DNA from: a virus
Virus record (IMG/VR): IMGVR_UViG_3300034137_000060
Coordinates: 1-41,685 of that record
Direction: 5' to 3' (one strand)
Length of the DNA stretch: 41,685 bases
Of the stretch, positions 10,145 to 39,581 are shown piece by piece (within the stretch, counting starts at the first letter, position 1; each line of letters begins with the position of its first letter). Under the pieces are notes generated by a model. That model was not told the DNA's origin and ran no database searches. It saw only the letters and a program-made list of their open reading frames with translations. A program made the position numbers and the translations under genes.

Positions 10145-10929
10145 GCATTGTCCGCGCCCCGCGTCCCGAATCGAACTTCTATCTCCTCAACAAGGCAATC
10201 AGCGAGAACCATCGCCTGAGCTGGGCGGCAAGGGGGCTGCTCGTCTTCTTGCTGGGCAAGCCTGACCACTGGAACGTCTCGGTGGCGCACCTTCGCAATG
10301 AAACGAGCAAGTCGGCCAAGCCCACGGGTCGAGACGGCGTTTACGGCCTCCTGGCAGAGCTGATTGAAACCGGTTATGTCCAGCGTCGGCAGACTCGCGG
10401 CGATGGCGGAGCCATGGGCGAGGTGTCCTATCTGGTCTCTGAATCACCGCTTCCTGACTCACCGCTTCCGGCTTCACCGGATACGGCTCAGCCGCTTCCG
10501 GCAAATCCGACACTAGTAAGTATTGAGGTTAAGCAAGGACTGAATGAAGCAGTAAGGATTGAAAAACCTTTGGGCAAACAGGATCCAATGGAAGGCTTTG
10601 AGACGTTCTGGAAGTTGTACCCGAGGAAGGTCAACAAGGTTCCTGCTGAGAAGGCCTGGAAGAAGCTGAGCGTAACCCCGGAACTGCTCGCGGTGATGAT
10701 CGGCGCGCTTGGCAAACAATCCACCAGCATTGAATGGCTCAAGAGTGGCGGCCAGTACATCCCCCACCCGGCAAGCTGGCTCAATGCCCGCCGCTGGGAG
10801 GATGAGATTCCTTCGGGTCTTGCTGGCGCCGGAACATCCCGTCACACCAACCTCGACCAGATCGACCACACCGCCGGCCTTGAGCTTGATGCTGATGGCA
10901 ACTACCGGGTAGCGGGGAGCGCGCAATGA
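10141..10929 (+). CDS. Replication initiator, lambda O-like
   Basis: A 262-residue replisome organiser. The N-terminal ~95 residues form a winged-helix domain (SNFYLLNKAISENHRLSWAARGLLVFLLG). A Pro/Ser-rich linker (about 100-125) is encoded by four 15-bp direct repeats, and the C-terminal domain carries FWKLYPRKVNKVPAEKAWKKL and YIPHPASWLNARRWEDE, typical of phage O-like proteins. The start is a TTG overlapping the upstream stop (TTGA), with GGAGG seven bases before it. It is followed directly by the loader and helicase genes. Confidence 0.85.
   Translation: MSIVRAPRPESNFYLLNKAISENHRLSWAARGLLVFLLGKPDHWNVSVAHLRNETSKSAKPTGRDGVYGLLAELIETGYVQRRQTRGDGGAMGEVSYLVSESPLPDSPLPASPDTAQPLPANPTLVSIEVKQGLNEAVRIEKPLGKQDPMEGFETFWKLYPRKVNKVPAEKAWKKLSVTPELLAVMIGALGKQSTSIEWLKSGGQYIPHPASWLNARRWEDEIPSGLAGAGTSRHTNLDQIDHTAGLELDADGNYRVAGSAQ
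10444..10503 (+). repeat. Four 15-bp direct repeats, candidate phage origin
   Basis: Four tandem 15-bp units start at 10444, 10459, 10474 and 10489; the clearest unit is TCACCGCTTCCGGCT. They lie inside the O-like gene and encode the repeated SPLPD/SPLPA/SPDTA/QPLPA linker. The next ~65 bases (10504-10570) are visibly AT-richer than their surroundings. Iterons followed by an AT-rich stretch inside the initiator gene is the plan of lambda ori. A purely protein-level linker repeat is the alternative. Confidence 0.5.
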
Positions 10930-11714
10930 CCACACGACCACGCTATACAATCGAAACTCGCGCCGGTCAGTGCGCCGAGCACGGGCAGTACCCGAACGCA
11001 CTGGTTCAACAGTTCGGCACCGATCCGGCTTGGTACGGCTGCCCACGCTGCCAGTTTGATCGCCGACACACTGCTGACCCGATTGTCCGGGCTGGAGGTG
11101 CCATTGAGCACGCGAACCGTCAACTAAACACGCAACTGCTCGACGCTGGTATCCCGCTGCGCTTTCAACAGGCCAGCCTTGACAACTGGATCGCCGGGAA
11201 TGACCAAGCCAAGGCGAAGGCCTGGAACATTGCCACGGGCTTCGTAGAGGCCTTCGCTGAAAACTTCGAAGTAGGACGCTGTGTGATGCTGCTGGGCAAG
11301 CCGGGTACTGGGAAAACCCATTTGGCGACTGCGATTCTCCAGCAAACGATCCGCTACTTCGGGGCCCAGGGCATGACAGGGGCGTACACCACGGCGGGCG
11401 GCATCATCCGTGCTGTGAAAGCCACCTTCGGCACCCAGGCTAAAACCGAGGCTTCGGTATACGCCGATATGGTCGCCCCGCACTTGCTGGTGATTGATGA
11501 GGTGGGCCTGCAGAACGGCACAGACTTCGAGCGGCAGACGCTTTTCGAAGTCATCAATGGGCGGTATGAGCAGGCCAAGCCAACGATTGTCGTTTCGAAC
11601 CTGGCCATCCCTCAGTTGCGCGACGCTCTCGGTGATCGATCAGTTGATCGTCTGCGGGATCGTGGCGGGCTGGTTGAAGTGTTCGGCTGGGCTTCCGCGC
11701 GGGGTGCAGCATGA
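10926..11714 (+). CDS. DnaC-like helicase loader (AAA+ ATPase)
   Basis: A 262-residue loader that would deliver DnaB-type helicase to the origin. A possible N-terminal zinc site is C16, H19, C39 and C42 (CPRC). Walker A is GKPGTGKTH at 124-132 and Walker B is LLVIDEVG at 187-194, followed by the family-typical NGRYEQAKPTIVVSN and RLRDRGG. It is coupled by ATGA to the initiator gene and the helicase gene, so loader and helicase are made together. Confidence 0.9.
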   Translation: MTTRPRYTIETRAGQCAEHGQYPNALVQQFGTDPAWYGCPRCQFDRRHTADPIVRAGGAIEHANRQLNTQLLDAGIPLRFQQASLDNWIAGNDQAKAKAWNIATGFVEAFAENFEVGRCVMLLGKPGTGKTHLATAILQQTIRYFGAQGMTGAYTTAGGIIRAVKATFGTQAKTEASVYADMVAPHLLVIDEVGLQNGTDFERQTLFEVINGRYEQAKPTIVVSNLAIPQLRDALGDRSVDRLRDRGGLVEVFGWASARGAA

Positions 11715-13084
11715 GTCGCGACCTGTTCAACATCAACGCAGAGCACGGCCTGCTGGGCGCTATCTTCGTCGACCCGTCATTGCTGGACGATATCGCCAGC
11801 AAGGTCAACATTGCGGACTTCTACGAGATTGAGAACGCTGCGCTGTTCCGGGCAATTCTCGACTGCCAGGCCGCTGGCGATCCGGTTGACGTAATCACCG
11901 TGAGTATCCATCACCCATCACTGCCCAGCGGAGAGAGTATGTTGGCGCACGCCGCCGATATTCACTCTAAAGCGCAAGGTACGTCGAGCTGGCGAACCTA
12001 CGCTCGCGTGATTCGAGAGCGGGCCGTGCTTCGCAAGGTCGTCGATTCAGCACAGGCCATCACCGAGTCGGCGAGCGAGGATCTACCAGTCGTAGATATC
12101 ATCGCCAACGCTCAGCAGGCCATGGCTGACTTGCGCGACCTGGAAGACGGTGAGCCAGACTATCACCGGATCAAAGACATCCTGCCGGAAGTGGTTGAGG
12201 CAATCGACGCTCGCTACAACGGCACGGCACCGAAGGGGCTTTCTACCGGTCTGCCAGATCTGGACGAGATCCTTCGAGGCCTTCGTCCGGGCAACATGAT
12301 CGTGATCGCCGGCCTCACCGGTACGGGCAAAACGATCTTGGGCCTGCAAATCGCCCAGCACGTCACCACCCAGCTCGGCGGCGCTGGATTGGCGTTCAGC
12401 ATGGAAATGACCCGGCAGGAGCTGGCGACACGGGGTATCGCTTCGATGGGCGGCGTAAACCTTGGACGACTGGACGAGGGCAACATCGAAGATGACGACT
12501 GGCCAAAGATCACCAGTGCGGTAGGGCGGCTGATGGAAGCCAGGCTGTACGTGAACGATCAGGCTGGGCTCACGCTGTCGCGTATCCGATCAATCGCCCG
12601 CCAGTGCCAGAAGCGGGAAGGGCTGGACGTTTTATTGGTCGATTACATCACCTTGATCGGCTCGGAGGGCGGCCAGAACCGGACGCTTGAGGTCGGCAAA
12701 ATCTCCACGGGCCTGAAAAATCTTGCGAAAGAGCTGCAGGTGCCGGTGATCGTGCTGGCGCAACTCAACCGAGGATCTGCGAACCGTACGGACAAGCGCC
12801 CGCGCACAAGCGATCTGCGTGACTCCGGCCAAATCGAGCAAGACGCCGACGCTGTGATCCTTTTGCACCGCGATGCAGACAGCGAAGAGGGCGCTAATGG
12901 CGTCACTCAGCTGATCGTCGGCAAGTGTCGCCACGGCAAGCCCGGTGACTGTCTTGTTCAGGCGCAAGGTCAGTTCGTGCGCTTCGTTCCGTTCGGGGGT
13001 AAGCCACCCTCAGACGAACAGGTCGCGATGGGCCGCGTGGTGAAGTTCACTGGCCGAACCCGAGGGAGGCCAGCCGATGAATGA
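11711..13084 (+). CDS. DnaB-like replicative helicase
   Basis: A 457-residue hexameric helicase that would unwind phage DNA. The DnaB N-terminal domain is at about 8-110 (EHGLLGAIFVDPSLLDDIA). The RecA-like domain has Walker A GLTGTGKT (201-208), Walker B VLLVDYITL (about 307-315), the LNRGSANRTDKRPRTSDLRDSGQIEQDAD block and the arginine-finger region. The length is normal for the family. It overlaps the loader by four bases and the downstream recombinase by eight. Confidence 0.95.
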   Translation: MSRDLFNINAEHGLLGAIFVDPSLLDDIASKVNIADFYEIENAALFRAILDCQAAGDPVDVITVSIHHPSLPSGESMLAHAADIHSKAQGTSSWRTYARVIRERAVLRKVVDSAQAITESASEDLPVVDIIANAQQAMADLRDLEDGEPDYHRIKDILPEVVEAIDARYNGTAPKGLSTGLPDLDEILRGLRPGNMIVIAGLTGTGKTILGLQIAQHVTTQLGGAGLAFSMEMTRQELATRGIASMGGVNLGRLDEGNIEDDDWPKITSAVGRLMEARLYVNDQAGLTLSRIRSIARQCQKREGLDVLLVDYITLIGSEGGQNRTLEVGKISTGLKNLAKELQVPVIVLAQLNRGSANRTDKRPRTSDLRDSGQIEQDADAVILLHRDADSEEGANGVTQLIVGKCRHGKPGDCLVQAQGQFVRFVPFGGKPPSDEQVAMGRVVKFTGRTRGRPADE

Positions 13085-14429
13085 CCAAGTGAAAACCCTT
13101 ACCGTGATCATGACCGACGCCGAAATCCGTCGGCACGCCGAGCGGTCGCATGTTCGAGCGCTTCGCGATGCTCGCCATCCGGCGCTGCACTTTCGTTATT
13201 CGACGGTCGACCGCAGTCGTGGATCTTGGCATGTTGTAGTGCGGGGCAAATGGGGCAAGGCGGGCAATTATCCTGGTATCAACGCCAAACTGATGCAGTC
13301 GACGCTGCCGTCGATCCTTGCGCGTCGCTCGGCTGATCCTGCGGCTGCATCGACCACCAGCAGTTGGACGACTGTCGGCGACGTGCTGGCCTGGTACACC
13401 GACCGGATGACCCGCGACCGTGGTCTGTCTGCCAAACGCAAGGCCAGCGCGCAGTCCGCATTGCGGTGCCACCTGGTGCCAAAACTTCAGCATGTGGAGT
13501 TGGCCAGCCTCAATCGTGCAGCCCTGGACAAGCTGCTGATGTGGCCCATGCAGGAGAAGTACGAACTGTCGTTCGTGCGGTCTGTGTATGGCGTGCTCGC
13601 CGCTGCGTTCCGCCAAGCAACCCGGCTGGCCCTTGTGGGGGCAAACCCCATGGCCGAGCTGAAATACAGCGACTTTGTCCGGACACGCATCAAACCCAAG
13701 CCCGCACGGCTGCGCGGTGACGACGTGCCTGCACTGCTGGCTGACCTGCGGGAGCGGATTACCCGCGCGCCTTTGGAATCGATGCTGGCGCTGCTGATGC
13801 TTTGCCACGGGACGCGACTCGGTGAAACCCGTCTGGCCCGCTGGAAGAACGTCAACGTGGCCACCGGTCAATGGTTCATCCCTGCGCCCGACACCAAGAC
13901 CAAGGCGGAGCACACGCTGCCACTGACCGGCCAGGCCTGCGCGCTTATTGAGCGCTACCGGGCCATGCAGCTCGCGACCGGGTATCAAGGGCCCTTCCTG
14001 TTCCCAGGGCGTTCAGGTGAGGCCATCAGCGCGACCAAGGCCAGCACCTTGTTCGCCGGAATGGCGGGGCGTGAATGGTCGAGCCATGACCTGCGCAAGG
14101 TTGCCCGTACTGCGTGGGCCGATCTGGGCGTGGATTACATGGTGGGGGAGATGCTGCTCAACCATGCGATGAAGGATCTGGACGCCACCTACATCCACAC
14201 CACCGCCGAGGGGCTGAAACGCCAAGCCTTGGAATCGTGGCATGACCACCTCGATAAGCTCGGTTTTGCTGCGCTGCATAACGGGACATGTGCGGGACAC
14301 GAATCGACTAATGAAGGCGTGCAGGCCAACGAATCCGTGGCGTGTAGCGCAAATCTGCATCCATCCCAAGGGAGGAGGCTAATAGAAAATGCCGCCGCCC
14401 AGACCCAGCCAGGAGACGGCAATGAGTAG
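13077..14429 (+). CDS. Second tyrosine recombinase, inside the replication operon
   Basis: A 450-residue tyrosine recombinase unrelated in detail to the integrase at the left end. The catalytic pattern is R247 (CHGTRLGE), a lysine near 274-276 (DTKTKAEHTLPL), H337-D-L-R340, H363 and Y372 (DATYIHTT). The N-terminal ~90 residues look like the arm domain of P4-type integrases (SRGSWHVVVRGKWGKAGNYPG), and a core-binding domain follows. GGGAGG precedes the ATG, which overlaps the helicase stop. It has no partner excisionase and is co-transcribed with replication genes, so resolution of replication products or a decayed integrase are both possible. Confidence 0.85.
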   Translation: MNDQVKTLTVIMTDAEIRRHAERSHVRALRDARHPALHFRYSTVDRSRGSWHVVVRGKWGKAGNYPGINAKLMQSTLPSILARRSADPAAASTTSSWTTVGDVLAWYTDRMTRDRGLSAKRKASAQSALRCHLVPKLQHVELASLNRAALDKLLMWPMQEKYELSFVRSVYGVLAAAFRQATRLALVGANPMAELKYSDFVRTRIKPKPARLRGDDVPALLADLRERITRAPLESMLALLMLCHGTRLGETRLARWKNVNVATGQWFIPAPDTKTKAEHTLPLTGQACALIERYRAMQLATGYQGPFLFPGRSGEAISATKASTLFAGMAGREWSSHDLRKVARTAWADLGVDYMVGEMLLNHAMKDLDATYIHTTAEGLKRQALESWHDHLDKLGFAALHNGTCAGHESTNEGVQANESVACSANLHPSQGRRLIENAAAQTQPGDGNE

Positions 14430-34600: not shown

Positions 34601-35019
34601 CGTTCGCCACCGGTGGGTTGATCTCGGGGCCAGGCACCGGCACCAGTGACAGTATTCTGGCTCGGCTATCGGCCGGCGAATACGTCATGAAGGCCTCTGC
34701 CGTTAGTGCGTATGGCACAAGCCTGCTCGACCAGATGAATGCTGGTCAGCTGCCATCATTTGCCACAGGGGGTGCGCCGGAACTTCGATTCGACGGGGCG
34801 GCAAGTTACCGCGCTACGCGATCCGAAACAGCCGACAGCCAGGGCGACGAACAAGACGTGGATGTAACTGCCCTCGCCAGAAAAGTCGACACGCTGATCG
34901 ATGTCGTGAAACAGGTTGTCGGGCCGATGAAAATTGACTCGGACAAGAACCGAAAACTATTCACAAAGTGGGACAACGAAGGGTTGCCCGCCACCAAAAA
35001 AGCGAGTGTGCCCGCATGA
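28630..35019 (+). CDS. Tape measure protein with C-terminal DUF4214 repeats
   Basis: A 2129-residue tail-length ruler. The tape-measure N-terminal domain is at about 60-240 (TVANRLKLVTSNSAEFT, ANAALIQLGQAFASGTLRGEE). A strongly hydrophobic stretch lies at about 478-503, and long Ala/Gln/Lys helices follow. Two DUF4214 repeats (IDTVYKDLLGKNADAAGKNYW and KDAYKNILDRVADAAGAKYW) lie near 1890-1980. The end has FATGGLISGPGTGTSD. At roughly 0.15 nm per residue the tail would be near 320 nm, much longer than lambda's. The stop overlaps the next gene by ATGA. Confidence 0.92.
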   Translation: MAGQEVQGMLIRLEATTAQLRQEMDKADASVTKATGRIDSQLSRVDSAFDRVGKSAQTASNVLKGAFALAVGGAGAGALLAQAEAYTTVANRLKLVTSNSAEFTAAQNAVFAIAQKSGQPLGATAELYQRIAQNQDALKLSGKGVAGIVETISKTMVISGTSAESANAALIQLGQAFASGTLRGEELNSVMEQAPALSQAIAKGMGVSVGALRALGAAGKLTADSVIKALQAQAEAVNALFAKMQGTVGIALTRTQTAFTKIIGEADAFSGTSASLAASIDAVAKALSSINVPAAMAVIEAHGKALAEILGVVLIAALGRVAAGLAEAGVKAAGNIVTWVQLTTVTRAAAAAKIEETAASALLTAAHVAEAASNVQVAQATEAGAIAKLALLQGQRDQLAYTTALSVGTVEQARYTKALAATDLELAAAKRAVQISSAQLDAALKIESATLAKDAAATQAASAAKAEYAAISSTAGRAGSALLGVLGGPVGLAFTVVALAASYLTLGSSTDAATKALIDQNATVGEAIKKFDELDASQQRLQTSKWVGEQRDALKSAAADLESYAAKSYQSLNLANRGNTEYQEQFARMLAEVRDGKRTLDSVTAWAQDTAKLTPMQVQRLTELSAAYGASTKRASELGDVLGKTSKATTGLTASTQELNAAQKTGGQSGASDAAWDTYIEKLTKTRDLLGANAAAEAAYTAAKMGATPAQMAQAKLIADETDTLKKYQEAIKEGNKVEQAALKLKLVALYAAEDATAQTAAAQKTSLDEAAKATENSATRQVAALQRIIDQTVRVATGTDMPRQNLSGYGLLTNGGTPPAAPVVTKATPDQRATADIARLNETTDANKRVDKAANAAATALKNQAKALDDLLAKSGISTKSANEMADAYLAGADNVRAITIQQKIEEELLKTGAGARDKVTKAINDLQDAEDRRDVNKNITEMKVEVDQILKQATATLQGKDALEAYNVEKSVTVALAGRNISVGSEEYKQLVATTKAQLDANKALEQAGQVEGIVDRLTPKTKLLRDFTNEQDALNAAIARYPENAALYQDALVKLGKEYEVNQSKATIWGQLTEGAVDRIDGVFADAWANIGSGAGNLWDNLVKGAKQAFGEIAHMLTTKPLLASLSNWLTGTDNGQGIGSVWSKLLGTVGGSSGSSSAGDSGGWGSMASLGKNIYSAWSAVTGVGADIAAGYASGGISGAVSGGIGYYSSMLSSLGGTLSSGFTSLTTALGLQTAATTAGTAAVGTGYGLGGALVSGTAGSATYAAGQAGLSAALSSAAAMWPLAVIMGMYQSGKLYSAGVRPDAGEMADSAGGTVLGKTTMLPAIAAAKYFEVTDKLLGKVVGGKMAAILSGSTLFQAVWSKVGSKLFGSGYQTKDTGIQLSVDDGMFDASQYIKQKKKKGLISGSSKTRYLTADLDPTIKDPLGQRYNSTVMTVLDQFTLLNVALNDTVLDGLNMAKRYISTKDRSEDDINTAIDLWFTDLGQAAVTAVSDATNSGIGNYNFVQLQEFVGNLYSINDTFKLLNINALPLSVWGGKLTEQYVAMAGGMEALNTSASKYYDNFFSDSEKASDTLAAVNQQFQALGLTLPANEAGFRAMVEGIDSTTDAGRSMYFTLMGLSDSAKAAYTIMKQQAADAEAASEAASQAASAAAQAALDAATAIRDALLATVSTRFSAVQRAIAAQEKATTDAYNARVNSLNDMLATANTSVSDLTGVSGNLSSALKALRGDSDDVVKMLRRQAQVTLQSALATAKAGGSLAGFAGLDDALETVSSNTTDLYSSLEDFNRDQGRTANVVAELNALNGKQLTNAQKTVKTLEDQLDVAKTAYDAQIAAFDQQLEFAQAQLDALNGVDNSILSVTDAVNAMNTAVVAALGTVKSATPANTGTLIDTVYKDLLGKNADAAGKNYWQGQVSSGAVGVDQLAGAIKNAATENAIKDAYKNILDRVADAAGAKYWSDQVASGALTVAQLGQAIANAAKANGSVPAFATGGLISGPGTGTSDSILARLSAGEYVMKASAVSAYGTSLLDQMNAGQLPSFATGGAPELRFDGAASYRATRSETADSQGDEQDVDVTALARKVDTLIDVVKQVVGPMKIDSDKNRKLFTKWDNEGLPATKKASVPA

Positions 35020-35909
35020 GGTTTATCCGACCTATTGAGGTCACTCCCGCGAAATTGATCAGTTCCAATGTTCTGGAAAATGACTATCCGGAGTGGGCTG
35101 CCGGAACGAATGCCCTGGGCGTCCGGAAAATGCTCGCGGCCGAGCACAAGGTTTATGAGGTGATTGCCGCGACTACCACCGACGCCCCGCAGGCGGGACT
35201 GCTGAAAGATCCACCCACTTGGATGGAGATCGGTTACACGAACCGGTGGCGGATGTTTGACGAGATTGTGGGTACCACGACTTCCAACCCGGGGATCGTT
35301 TCCGTAACGATCAAGCCAGGCACAGTTGTGAACTCCCTCGCGCTGTTCAACGTCCAGGGTGGATCCGTGACGGTTACCGTGACAGACCCCGTGGAGGGGG
35401 AGATCTACACGCGAACTGTCAGCCTTGTGGATGCCGGCGTGAATAACTGGTTTGACTGGTTTTTCGCTGACATCGAGGTTCGGACCAGTCTGGTCTTTCT
35501 TGATATGCCCGCATACGGAACGGCAAACATCACGATCACCGTCACGAGCAGCACCACGGCCAGCGTTGGCGCATTGGTAATTGGCAAGCTGATCCCGATT
35601 GGCACCACCACATACGGCGCCAAGGTCGGGATTGACGACTACAGCACGAAGGAACGAGACAAGTTCGGCAATCTCGTTGTGCTGGAGGGTGCTTATTCAG
35701 ACACGGGAGACTTCCCCGTCGTTGTCGAGACGGCGCGCGTGACGAAGATCAGGAAAATGCTGATTGAAGTTCGCGCCAAGCCGGTGGTGTGGATCGGCGA
35801 AGAAACATACGAAGCGACAATCATTTACGGCTTTTTCAAATCATTCGACCTGATTTATTCGGGGCCGGACGTTTCTGACTGCCAGCTTTCTATCGAGGGT
35901 CTTATCTAA
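35016..35909 (+). CDS. Tail protein downstream of the tape measure
   Basis: A 297-residue beta-rich protein. MRFIRPIEVTPAKLISSNV, then YPEWAAGTNAL and HKVYEVIAATTTDAPQ resemble phage tail proteins with a small WxAGTxY/VYE carbohydrate-binding-like motif. TNRWRMFDEIVGTTTSNPG and YSTKERDKFGN are also recurrent in this family. It is the only gene between the tape measure and the fibre, so it may replace several tip proteins. The start overlaps the tape measure stop, and its stop is directly followed by the fibre ATG. Confidence 0.7.
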   Translation: MRFIRPIEVTPAKLISSNVLENDYPEWAAGTNALGVRKMLAAEHKVYEVIAATTTDAPQAGLLKDPPTWMEIGYTNRWRMFDEIVGTTTSNPGIVSVTIKPGTVVNSLALFNVQGGSVTVTVTDPVEGEIYTRTVSLVDAGVNNWFDWFFADIEVRTSLVFLDMPAYGTANITITVTSSTTASVGALVIGKLIPIGTTTYGAKVGIDDYSTKERDKFGNLVVLEGAYSDTGDFPVVVETARVTKIRKMLIEVRAKPVVWIGEETYEATIIYGFFKSFDLIYSGPDVSDCQLSIEGLI

Positions 35910-38344
35910 TGGCTGCACCAATATTTGCGGAATTCCCTCCGGCCCCGTCGCGATCCGAAGGGCAGGAGGATTTTAGCGAAACAGCGGATGCGTTTGCGGC
36001 AGCATTGCCGCCCTTCGCGTTGAAAATGAACCTGGCCATCACCTGGATGGCCGACACGATGACAGCCACTTCGGGCTACAAGGACGCTGCGGCCGCTTCT
36101 GCTAACCTGTCCTCTCAAGCGGCCGTGACTTCTGCCCAGGCGAGAGACGCCGCGCTGGCCGCCGTGACCGCCGCCACTCAGGCAGGGGCGGCTCAGGTTG
36201 CGCTGGCAGCGCAGCAGGTCGCGTTGGCTGTCGCTGCCAAAGATACGGCGCAGACCTATGCCGTTGCGGCCGGGGCATCTTCCGGGGTCGGTCAGCTCGG
36301 CAATTCTGGAGACGCCCTCGTTGTAAACGCAACCCGCACGGGAATGATGTTTGCGCCCGCGTCAAACGTAGGTGATATTCTTATTAGCGCAGTTACTCCC
36401 GGCCCCTTGTATGTTCCAGCCAATGGTGGCATTCGTGCCCAATCGGCACTACCGAGTTTGTTCGGTATTCTTGGACGATTAGGTGGACAAATAGGCCAGC
36501 AGTACCTTGCTGTATCGCCCGGCAACACTAGCGCCGGAGTTATCGACATTGCTAGTGCATCAAGTCTTACCAGCAAAATTCCCATGATTATGCAGATAAT
36601 CACTGGCAGCTTGATTAACCTTAGTCTTGATGGCGGTATGACATGGGTGCAGAAGGATGCATCAGCCAGCATTACTAACGTAAACTCATTAAACTATGAC
36701 GAGTCTCGGAGGCTATGGATTGCTACTAACTCGTCAGGGCTTTTGTATACCAGTGCGGACGATGGAACAACGTGGATAACTGCGCTAAACCAACCTGTAG
36801 TATTTGGCCGAGTAATCGCAGATACCAACGGGGTATGGCTCGCAAGTCCAGTGGCAGCCAACACAAGCATTTACCGAAGCACTGACGCGGGCGTCACATG
36901 GACGGCCATAGCCACGGGGGCATCGGCTATACATACTGCAATATCGACAGATAATAAGGGTGTCTGGTGCGTCTGTGCGGGTACGACCGTGCGGCGGTCC
37001 GCCGACGGCGGTCTGACTTGGACGATATCGATAACAGCAGGGTCTACAGTAGGGTCAATCTCCAACGACCGAAACGGTACGTGGATGGTTGGGGTATCGG
37101 TCAGCAGTACTGGAATACTACGTTCAGTTGACAACGGCTTGACTTTTTACTCGTTGACAATTGCTACAGCGGTCGTAACCGATATAGCTTATACACAAGG
37201 CTTCTTTTTCATCGTGCGTAGCGTGTCTCCGCAGTTGATGATGATTAGCTCTGCGCCAGATGTCACGACCTTCACAATTCCAACTGCCGCAGTACTTGCA
37301 AGCCTTAGCCGCGTCACAGCGACGGCGGGCTATGTTGTGGCTGCCAACTCGGCAAACGCAACTGTTCTTCGCTCTGCGCCGATATTCGCTTATGATCCAA
37401 ACACGCAGTTACAGCTTCCTAACTTGCCTACTGCTAATGGTTTGCAAGCGTGGATTAAAGCGGGTTTAATTTCGGCCTCTACAGGTAAGACGTTTACGCT
37501 AGTAGCTTCTAATATCTATTCGTCCGTATCCGACATGGCGTCCGATGAAAACGGCGTGATAATCGCAGTTGGGACGAACGGCACTATCCGCAGGTCTGCT
37601 GACTATGGGGTAACTTGGGTAACTATTGCTAACCCTAGCGGTCTGGGCCAACTTTCGTCAGTAGCAACTAACGGCCGGGGTCTTTGGATTATAGGCGGCA
37701 TTAGTAATATTTTACGTTCGACCGACAACGGGGTTACATTTGTTGCCGTAACTGGGCACGGCCTAGTCGGGACAATAAGCCAGGTTGTAATCGGCCGTAA
37801 TGACGTGACGATTGCGTGTCTATCAACGGCCGTAATTCCACGAAAATCAACGGACGGTGGCCTTACCTGGGCTTCTACTGGATTGACAGCTGCTGTAAGT
37901 AGAGCATGCACCGATGGCGCGGGTAATTGGTTGATTGGCCAAGGTGCTGGAAGCGTTTTTAGAAGCGCAGACAATTCCTCTACTTTTTCGGCGGCTATCG
38001 TTAGCGGGCTACTTGTCGCAATCACCGACATAAAAATGACGAAAAACGGTGTTGCTTATCTTTGCGGGGCGTCAACCTCGGCTAAAAAGTCAACTGACTA
38101 TGGGGTAACTTGGTCAGCACTTAGTTTGCCCGCAGCAGGCTTGAAATTTGCAACCGGCAACACCAATATCGTCATGCTTTACGGGGTAGGTGTCTCGCGA
38201 ACTACCTTAGATGGCGGGCTAACTTGGACAACAATTGATCCGGCCGCAAATAGTTCTATTGTATTTGGCGGCACTAATTCGCCTTTTTCATTGGGTAGTG
38301 GTGGTGGTTCTCTATATACAGCAACCTCATTTATGCCAATTTAA
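35909..38344 (+). CDS. Tail fibre with eleven Asp-box (BNR) repeats
   Basis: An 811-residue receptor-binding protein. The first ~60 residues are the fibre anchor (FPPAPSRSEGQEDFSETADAF), then an Ala-rich coiled coil (60-125). Eleven Asp boxes (S-x-D-x-G-x-T-W/F) follow at about 239, 282, 324, 364, 406, then 563, 604, 647, 686, 728 and 766, spaced 38-43 residues. Between the two sets lies LQLPNLPTANGLQAWIKAG (501-519), a motif normally near the C-terminus of tail fibres. Catalytic sialidase residues were not identified, so binding rather than cleavage is likelier. Codon use is AT-richer from about 36360 on. Confidence 0.85.
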   Translation: MAAPIFAEFPPAPSRSEGQEDFSETADAFAAALPPFALKMNLAITWMADTMTATSGYKDAAAASANLSSQAAVTSAQARDAALAAVTAATQAGAAQVALAAQQVALAVAAKDTAQTYAVAAGASSGVGQLGNSGDALVVNATRTGMMFAPASNVGDILISAVTPGPLYVPANGGIRAQSALPSLFGILGRLGGQIGQQYLAVSPGNTSAGVIDIASASSLTSKIPMIMQIITGSLINLSLDGGMTWVQKDASASITNVNSLNYDESRRLWIATNSSGLLYTSADDGTTWITALNQPVVFGRVIADTNGVWLASPVAANTSIYRSTDAGVTWTAIATGASAIHTAISTDNKGVWCVCAGTTVRRSADGGLTWTISITAGSTVGSISNDRNGTWMVGVSVSSTGILRSVDNGLTFYSLTIATAVVTDIAYTQGFFFIVRSVSPQLMMISSAPDVTTFTIPTAAVLASLSRVTATAGYVVAANSANATVLRSAPIFAYDPNTQLQLPNLPTANGLQAWIKAGLISASTGKTFTLVASNIYSSVSDMASDENGVIIAVGTNGTIRRSADYGVTWVTIANPSGLGQLSSVATNGRGLWIIGGISNILRSTDNGVTFVAVTGHGLVGTISQVVIGRNDVTIACLSTAVIPRKSTDGGLTWASTGLTAAVSRACTDGAGNWLIGQGAGSVFRSADNSSTFSAAIVSGLLVAITDIKMTKNGVAYLCGASTSAKKSTDYGVTWSALSLPAAGLKFATGNTNIVMLYGVGVSRTTLDGGLTWTTIDPAANSSIVFGGTNSPFSLGSGGGSLYTATSFMPI

Positions 38345-38353
38345 GGATTCGAC

Positions 38354-38863
38354 ATGCAAACTATCTATCGTTGGGATGAAAGCCGAATTTATGCTGGCAG
38401 TATCGAGGTAGACGAATCGGGAGAACTGCCGATTCGATCAACTTTCACCGCACCGCCTGAGCTTGAAGGCAAGCAGGTTGCAAGCTGGACCGGGGAGGGC
38501 TGGACGGTGCTGGAGTCTGTGCCCGCCGCGCCGGCTCCCGAGTGGACAGCGCTGATCGCGGCCCGTCGCTATGTTGCCGAGACTGCCGGGACCACCATCG
38601 AAGGCATGCCCATCGACACCGGCCGCGACAGCCAAGGCCTGATCACTGGCGCAGCGGTGCAGGCCCTCATCGATCCGGCGTATTCGCTGCACTGGAAAAC
38701 CTCGGCTGGCTTCGTTGAGTTGACTCGCGAGCAGATCCTTGGCGTGGCTTCAGCAGTCCGGGCGTACGTGCAGGCGTGCTTCAATCGCGAGGCTGCGCTG
38801 CTTGATGCGGTTGCCGACGGCACGATCACCACCGCCATGCTCGAAGAGGGCTGGCCCGCTTAA
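38354..38863 (+). CDS. Tail fibre assembly / DUF4376 protein
   Basis: A 169-residue protein that follows the fibre gene. The N-terminal part (IYRWDESRIYAGSIEV, PPELEGKQVASWTGEGW) and the DUF4376 domain (about 60-165: AARRYVAETAGTTIEGMPIDT, WKTSAGFVELTREQILGV) are typical of fibre chaperones or fibre-associated proteins. AAGGA precedes the ATG. Its stop is followed three bases later by a repeat found twice more downstream. Confidence 0.8.
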   Translation: MQTIYRWDESRIYAGSIEVDESGELPIRSTFTAPPELEGKQVASWTGEGWTVLESVPAAPAPEWTALIAARRYVAETAGTTIEGMPIDTGRDSQGLITGAAVQALIDPAYSLHWKTSAGFVELTREQILGVASAVRAYVQACFNREAALLDAVADGTITTAMLEEGWPA

Positions 38864-38865
38864 CC

Positions 38866-38883
38866 CATCGACTACAAATTTCA
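38866..38883 (+). repeat. 18-bp direct repeat, left copy
   Basis: CATCGACTACAAATTTCA. The last three bases are also the stop codon (TGA, minus strand) of the manganese-catalase-like gene. A copy with one mismatch lies on the other side of that gene at 39582-39599. Downstream bases CAGCTAT are shared with a third, looser copy near 40774. Confidence 0.7.
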
Positions 38884-39471
38884 GCTATCTGAGCCTCCCG
38901 ATCTGTCTTTGCCAGCTAGGCTGCGCAGCATTTCGATGAAGTCATTTCGATGTTGTATCTGGCGCGCTTGGATGTAGTTGAGTGCCGATATGAAATTGGC
39001 ATCGTCGGTCAGCTCAACCAGTCTCTGGTAGGCAATAATCTGTTTTGTCTCCGTATCGATGTTAGCGGTAAGGTATTTTTTTGGGTTATTGCTGAGCTGA
39101 TTGCTGTCTATAGGTTGGCGGGAATTCGGTGCAAGCCTGAGCTGCGACAATCCAGCAGAGAACTTGTGAGTGCTGATTCCATTGAAGCTAAGGAATTCTT
39201 TGAATTCATTTCGATCTATGCGGGTCGATAATGGCCCACTAACTCCCTTGGATATCTGAAGGAGAATTGAACCGAGTATGTCTGCATGTTTGATTTTAGT
39301 CTTAGCGATTCTGATTAAGTTTGCTCTTCGCGTGCGGTTGTATTCTGTAGAAGCCTGAACCAGATACGCCGACGCTGTAGGTAGCTCACCTTGCTGTCCT
39401 CGGAACTGCTCTAGGAGGAGATCAAAAAACTTGAGATCTTTGATAAAACTACCGTCCGATGTGCTAGCCAT
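38881..39471 (-). CDS. Degenerate manganese-catalase-like protein (reversed cargo)
   Basis: A 196-residue ferritin-like helical protein. LLLEQFRGQQGELPTASAYL and TANIDTETKQIIAYQRLVELTDDANF align by eye with non-haem manganese catalases (LLEQFGGxxGEL..., NIAAEARAKIVYERL..TDD). E29, H62, E141 and H174 fit four of the five metal ligands. The fifth, a Glu three residues before H62, is K59, and the second-shell Glu before H174 is Q171. The start at 39471 is set by AAGGAGA. It is reversed, AT-richer than its neighbours and bracketed by direct repeats, so it is probably a moron. Catalase activity is doubtful. Confidence 0.7.
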   Translation of the reverse strand: MASTSDGSFIKDLKFFDLLLEQFRGQQGELPTASAYLVQASTEYNRTRRANLIRIAKTKIKHADILGSILLQISKGVSGPLSTRIDRNEFKEFLSFNGISTHKFSAGLSQLRLAPNSRQPIDSNQLSNNPKKYLTANIDTETKQIIAYQRLVELTDDANFISALNYIQARQIQHRNDFIEMLRSLAGKDRSGGSDS

Positions 39472-39581
39472 GCCGCTCTCCTTGGGCACGTTGATTTAAC
39501 TACTCAGTACTTGAGATCAGAAAATCCCGGTGCAGTTCCGTCCGGGACGGAGCGCCGAGCTGAAAGGTCGCAACCTCGGAC

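Follow-up and report, generated by a model that had tools for sequence, protein, structure and literature searches.

A phage tail fibre with a predicted beta-propeller inside a collar-type domain and a second one after it

The phage and its tail fibre gene

The window analysed here is a whole virus record of 41,685 bases. It contains a lambda-type integrase at its left end (1-1113), genes for a CI-like repressor, a DnaB-like helicase, terminase, portal, capsid and tail tube proteins, and further tail genes, including a tape measure of 2129 amino acids; judged by this gene content, the phage is temperate and long-tailed. Apart from this integrase, the phage has another tyrosine recombinase-like gene (PF00589, 68.2 bits; 13077-14429, + strand), located in the replication region. 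The gene directly upstream of the DnaB-like helicase (10926-11714, + strand) matches the PADLOC model for DrmD with 41 bits, which probably corresponds to a shared ATPase domain rather than to a defence gene.

The fibre gene (35909-38344, + strand) is an open reading frame with an ATG start that encodes 811 amino acids, and its neighbours are tail genes according to Pfam and PHROG. Upstream lies a distal tail gene (35016..35909, + strand; PHROG 6278, E 6.8e-83), which served as the syntenic anchor; its conserved start is the ATG at 35016 (MRFIRP), where the relatives also begin, and not the GTG at 34968. Downstream is a gene with a DUF4376 domain (38354..38863, + strand; PF14301, 74.2 bits; PHROG 10508), which resembles PHROG tail fibre protein families and is also found directly after the fibre gene in three related loci (L009, L010 and L012). 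Just past the fibre genes, on the opposite strand, lies an ORF of 202 amino acids (38881-39489, - strand) with a match to manganese catalase (PF05067, 61.6 bits). The surrounding DNA is low in GC (about 45-47%), and the ORF may be a cargo gene that the prophage expresses.

Residues 1-152 of the fibre (35909..36364, + strand) form an N-terminal region that the alignment shows to be common to the relatives, strongly so for the first ~50 residues, with 83% DNA identity to L012 up to position 36066 (about residue 53). This region is presumed to comprise the virion attachment and an Ala-rich shaft. On the same strand it is followed by the first part of a collar-type domain at residues 153-198 (36365..36502; VGDILISAVTPGPLYVPANGG..LPSLFGILG..), by propeller 1 at residues 194-492 (36488..37384), which is inserted in the collar and overlaps the final residues of the collar start, by the last part of the collar-type domain at residues 493-518 (37385..37462; FAYDPNTQLQLPNLPTANGLQAWIKA), and by propeller 2 at residues 519-811 (37463..38341), past the collar end.

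The two propellers correspond to two arrays of Asp boxes. With the strict pattern [ST]x[DN]x[GS]x[TS][WFY], the fibre has 11 boxes, starting at residues 239, 282, 324, 364 and 406 in array 1 and at residues 563, 604, 647, 686, 728 and 766 in array 2, with a spacing of 38-43 residues inside each array; 2000 shuffles of residues 151-811 gave 0.05 strict boxes on average and never more than 2. At residue 448, after the five strict boxes of array 1, there is a sixth, degenerate one, SAPDVTTF. The motif between the arrays (YDPNTQLQLPNLPTANGLQAWIKAG / FAYDPNTQLQLPNLPTANGLQAWIKAG) falls within residues 493-518. The Pfam matches of the fibre include BNR (PF02012, 48.2 bits, cut-off 27), YCF48/PSII_BNR (PF14870, 47.3 bits, cut-off 27) and Sortilin-Vps10 (45 bits, cut-off 33); no sialidase family was found among the Pfam matches up to E = 1, and no Pfam glycosidase family matched the fibre. 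The regular boxes, the Pfam scores above cut-off and the modelled fold described below place the arrays among the BNR/Asp-box (YCF48-like) propellers.

Relatives of the fibre and their shared architecture

With the whole fibre protein as the query, one match was obtained in a Vibrio phage and none in plasmids, viral contigs or genome contigs, and neither searching for the collar end as a fixed DNA pattern nor using the rebuilt collar as a single-sequence query returned any match. The relatives were reached by synteny, through an alignment of the upstream PHROG 6278 gene, and then with an alignment of collar and propeller. The PHROG 6278 alignment recovered 379 loci in viral contigs, and the analysis continued with the best 80; the nearest four among these best 80 of 379 have 79-87% identity in the upstream gene. 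Three of the four (L009, L010 and L012) each have a single Asp-box array in a fibre of about 545-563 residues, and the fourth (L011) has a short fibre of 224 amino acids and, after it, a separate ORF that combines a glycine-rich part with propeller-like repeats (L011:6936-9220). In L010 an in-frame TAG (L010:7341-7343) splits the fibre gene into 137 + 417 codons, with a GTG one codon later; the gene may be broken, the stop may be read through, or the TAG may be an error of sequencing. The sequence of the fibre and propeller ORF region of L011 recurs at locus L153 of a Pseudomonas genome. The upstream tail gene has a homologue in Vibrio phage 2.095.A (L008:3017-4801) that is itself enlarged and annotated as WD40/YVTN repeat-like.

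In total, 20 relatives were assembled: L009, L010 and L012; Salicola phage CGphi29 (L003), with the same fibre layout and a different propeller; L091-L096, L098 and the Pseudomonas prophage L108, from scans with the fibre alignment; L149, L150, L151 and L155 in Pseudomonas genomes; L163, L165 and L166 in viral contigs; and L210. Most of the matches in bacterial genomes were rejected as fibres, leaving the collar uncovered and resembling host propeller proteins. Two other proteins have a collar-like start followed by a propeller and lack a clear collar end, namely a collagen-like fibre (L106:2018-4831) and a protein in a Pseudomonas genome (L156:2301-3395). Since the best bacterial-genome relatives of the fibre sit in Pseudomonas genomes, a Pseudomonas-type host is likely for the phage of the window.

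All 20 relatives have the same order of attachment region, collar start, propeller, collar end and protein end, with L009, L092, L093, L150 and L210 read by eye. Their collar start follows the pattern 'GD[IVL]...PxxYLPANGxI..QSAYPALFxxLG', the propeller insert has about 290-335 residues, and the collar end follows 'YDxxTQFxLPNxxxxxGLxxYIKA', with the protein terminating 0-5 residues later (20 of 20). The window fibre alone continues past the collar end, for another 293 residues that contain six Asp boxes. Profiles built from the relatives with the window left out match residues 153-198 for the collar start (58.5 bits; best of shuffles, 5.6) and residues 493-518 for the collar end (33.4 bits; best of 1000 shuffles, 5.3). 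With the same profiles, no credible second copy of either collar part was found in the window protein, so each part is present once and the two flank array 1. The sequence comparison establishes the order of the domains and the homology of both collar parts to those of the relatives.

These results bear out most of the preliminary description, which had read the protein as five Asp boxes, a motif that normally ends tail fibres and six more boxes. The motif is the C-terminus, to within 5 residues, in every relative; the sequence before the first array, which had been likened to the start of a collar domain, is matched by the collar-start profile of the relatives; and the proposal that array 1 lies inside the collar domain and array 2 after it is supported by the 20 single-propeller relatives, the profile matches and the similarity to collars.

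The propeller slot of the family is occupied by more than one type of repeat, with WD40-like repeats in L003, L165 and L210 (the L210 insert has weak WD40-type Pfam matches) and Asp-box repeats in the other relatives. One genome of the Pseudomonas group (G138) has three collar fibres (L210, L155 and L150) with differing inserts, two of them different inserts of Asp-box type and one WD40-like, all at the same slot. As far as these sequences indicate, this is a sparse family of collar-propeller fibres in which the slot accepts propellers of different families.

Collar identity, structure models and composition

The T4 gp12 protein is the textbook example of the phage tail collar domain (PF07484). 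The window fibre and its relatives share with ordinary PF07484 collars the collar start pattern, the FxLPN strand and, presumably, the position at the tail-fibre tip. When the two collar halves were joined, those of L095 (24.3 bits) and L165 (26.3 bits) were above the PF07484 cut-off of 24, those of L009, L108, L149, L163, L210 and L003 scored 18.6-21.3 against the same cut-off, and those of the window fibre and several others had no match in the PF07484 search. The match runs beyond the junction in L009, L108 and L210. In a control with the order of the halves swapped, Pfam Collar was still matched, by the first half only, which indicates that the first half supplies most of the Pfam score in the relatives. 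A profile of 12 rebuilt collars, mostly from relatives apart from the window's own and those of L165 type, could be aligned across both of its halves with natural contiguous collars from two Microbacterium phages, with a probability of 97% and, as a single comparison, E 1.3e-10; a profile search of solved structures with the rebuilt collars gave chance-level matches alone (ribosomal S4 and similar). By homology, the first half is a collar; because it carries most of the Pfam score, the assignment of the second half draws chiefly on the conservation of its position and pattern.

Three ordinary, naturally contiguous collars (L157, L158 and L167) have a loop of 10-12 residues before FxLPN and one of 95-100 residues after it. 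The natural empty collar L167 ('YLQSAYPALFAAIGTAYGSADGTHFNVPD') has 10 residues at the propeller slot and scores 78 bits with Pfam Collar. In contrast, the propeller fibres hold a propeller of ~300 residues before FxLPN (about 309 residues in the window fibre) and only about 10 residues after it, and the window fibre adds the second propeller past the collar end. On this sequence comparison, the variable head is seen to have changed loops between ordinary collars and propeller fibres.

The AlphaFold2 model of the monomer, with 13 aligned sequences, gives most of propeller 1 (194-492) a pLDDT of 70-93 and array 2 one of about 70-80, whereas the collar segments are below 50 and form a low-confidence break between the two propellers. 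From the list of strands, rather than from coordinates, it appears that propeller 1 could use its first strand to complete its last blade, bringing the ends together as an insertion requires. Modelled alone with 17 sequences, array 2 reached a pTM of 0.78 with six clear blades, the last ~34 residues being uncertain, and among solved structures it is closest to YCF48 proteins (TM up to 0.68). The models thus give a propeller fold for both arrays, in agreement with the two propeller-like heads anticipated in the preliminary description. A single continuous fold was rejected, with the low-confidence break, the independent folding of array 2 and the collar-end profile match between the arrays all speaking for two domains. 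Over most of its length, the whole fibre model is also matched by models of other large phage proteins, so multiple propellers within one phage protein are probably no novelty on their own.

The GC content at third codon positions (GC3) is 0.66 for residues 1-150, 0.33 for the collar start, 0.51 for array 1, 0.40 for the collar end and 0.43 for array 2, and 0.69 in the gene after the fibre. The AT-rich composition noted earlier from about position 36360 is therefore a real break; the recent acquisition read from it is not supported as stated, because GC3 falls at the collar rather than at the first propeller and because the drop is present in all 14 relatives checked (mean 0.12, against 0.20 in the window). 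The same break in 14 of 14 relatives led us to reject the GC change as a sign of recent acquisition of either array, and the gap between array 2 (0.43) and array 1 (0.51) is too small to date array 2. Together with its onset at the collar, the shared break marks instead an exchangeable head cassette. DNA similarity to the relatives returns in the next gene (38372-38530, varying by relative), and in sequence the collar and head resemble a single exchangeable cassette, a usual feature of host-range regions.

A probable two-propeller fibre and its alternatives

The explanation favoured here, with a probability of roughly three in four, is that the protein is a host-recognition fibre with a collar-type tip, propeller 1 in the loop of the collar and a separate propeller 2 after it. 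The collar-type domain would form the fibre tip, and the loop between the 'YPxLFxxLG' segment and the 'FxLPN' strand, ordinarily of ~10 residues, would hold a whole beta-propeller, with the extra Asp-box propeller of the window fibre placed past the normal C-terminus of the collar. Known collar fibres and Gp45 of phage phi11 (PMC4901313) suggest by analogy that the fibre would be a trimer with its tip at the collar. The two collar parts would pack together as this tip, and each chain would carry propeller 1 beside it and propeller 2 beyond, making six propellers per fibre. The propellers may bind sugars or proteins of the cell surface, and two host-binding heads are probably presented per chain, which could provide a second specificity or more avidity. 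The temperate, long-tailed phage that carries this fibre probably infects Pseudomonas or a close relative.

An enzymatic role was considered, in which the propellers act as one unit, facing each other across a cleft as in the GH74 xyloglucanases, and the fibre degrades polysaccharide. The whole model has its best fold matches among tandem two-propeller proteins, with GH74 enzymes first, and the best sequence match among solved structures is a xyloglucanase (E 1e-5). However, the pair has an rmsd of over 20 A, and therefore only the separate propellers match GH74; with a collar segment separating the two propellers, relatives that work with one, array 2 alone fitting YCF48 best and the glycosidase and sialidase families missing from the Pfam matches, this role appears improbable. 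Slightly less credit still is given to an artefact of assembly or binning that joined fibre genes of related phages in one contig. The second propeller is seen in a single record, the window, which is a virus record, against 20 relatives examined; yet no stop interrupts the reading frame over the whole 2.4 kb, the join coincides with a domain boundary, no second collar part is found past array 2, and the expected DUF4376 gene comes next. The similar repeat lengths of both arrays would also fit one continuous repeat domain with a chance resemblance to a collar end in its middle, but that resemblance amounts to 33 bits with the profile of the relatives, is the C-terminus of all 20 of them and lies in the low-confidence break, and array 2 folds by itself, so this reading is hardly credible.

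A further alternative bears on the origin of propeller 2 alone and not on the present architecture, namely that it is a tandem duplicate of propeller 1 or a fused downstream propeller gene, and not a captured fibre insert. The two arrays are about 32% identical, and a tree test retained them as sisters (p-AU 0.059), so duplication is not rejected; for fusion, free-standing propeller ORFs are found after a short fibre in L005 and L011. Against both, the closest match of array 2 is an insert from a different fibre, L094 (37% over 235 residues), and the propeller tree, mostly unresolved, has L094 nearest to both arrays. Duplication or fusion is thus a serious candidate, at somewhat below even odds. 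The free-standing protein of L005, from Limnohabitans phage DC31 (L005:6602-8392), has 596 amino acids of propeller repeats and lies right after the short fibre gene.

Similarly to the favoured two-propeller fibre, the single-propeller relatives have the same part order, the same collar start and end and one propeller in the collar, and several have the same upstream and downstream genes, but they have nothing beyond 5 residues after the collar end. Phage phi11 Gp45 is a trimeric fibre with one propeller per chain for receptor binding (PMC4901313); unlike those of the window, this propeller is five-bladed and lies between the stem and a C-terminal tower, outside any collar. PhiKZ gp131C has a seven-bladed propeller proposed to bind a receptor, as described in PMC4901313, and is like the window fibre a phage tail protein with a propeller, in its case from a Pseudomonas phage; that propeller is the terminal domain of a baseplate protein, with no collar reported. 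Among cellular proteins, YCF48, the photosystem II assembly factor, shares with propeller 2 its fold (TM 0.67) and Asp-box repeats, and GH74 shares with the window fibre two propellers in one chain, but both are without fibre or collar. A catalogue of contractile injection system fibres includes propeller lectins joined to collagen-like shafts (PMC12923769), and an added propeller in a bacterial protein is mentioned in a tentaclin paper (PMC10743442); both arrangements differ from the collar-inserted propeller of the window. In the open-access papers searched, there was no account of propellers in the collar loop, nor of a fibre with both the collar loop and the post-collar position filled. 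Collar, propeller and fibre are each known, and for their combination in the window we found no description in the open-access literature searched.

More tentatively, and at slightly longer odds than the origin by duplication or fusion, the collar may be a general docking platform with two sites, the loop for varied propellers (Asp-box, WD40-like) and the C-terminus for a second one; if so, the window fibre would be a naturally two-specificity fibre. The architecture suggests a simple route to change or add host-binding heads with the tip undisturbed, by swapping the propeller in the collar loop or by appending one after the collar.
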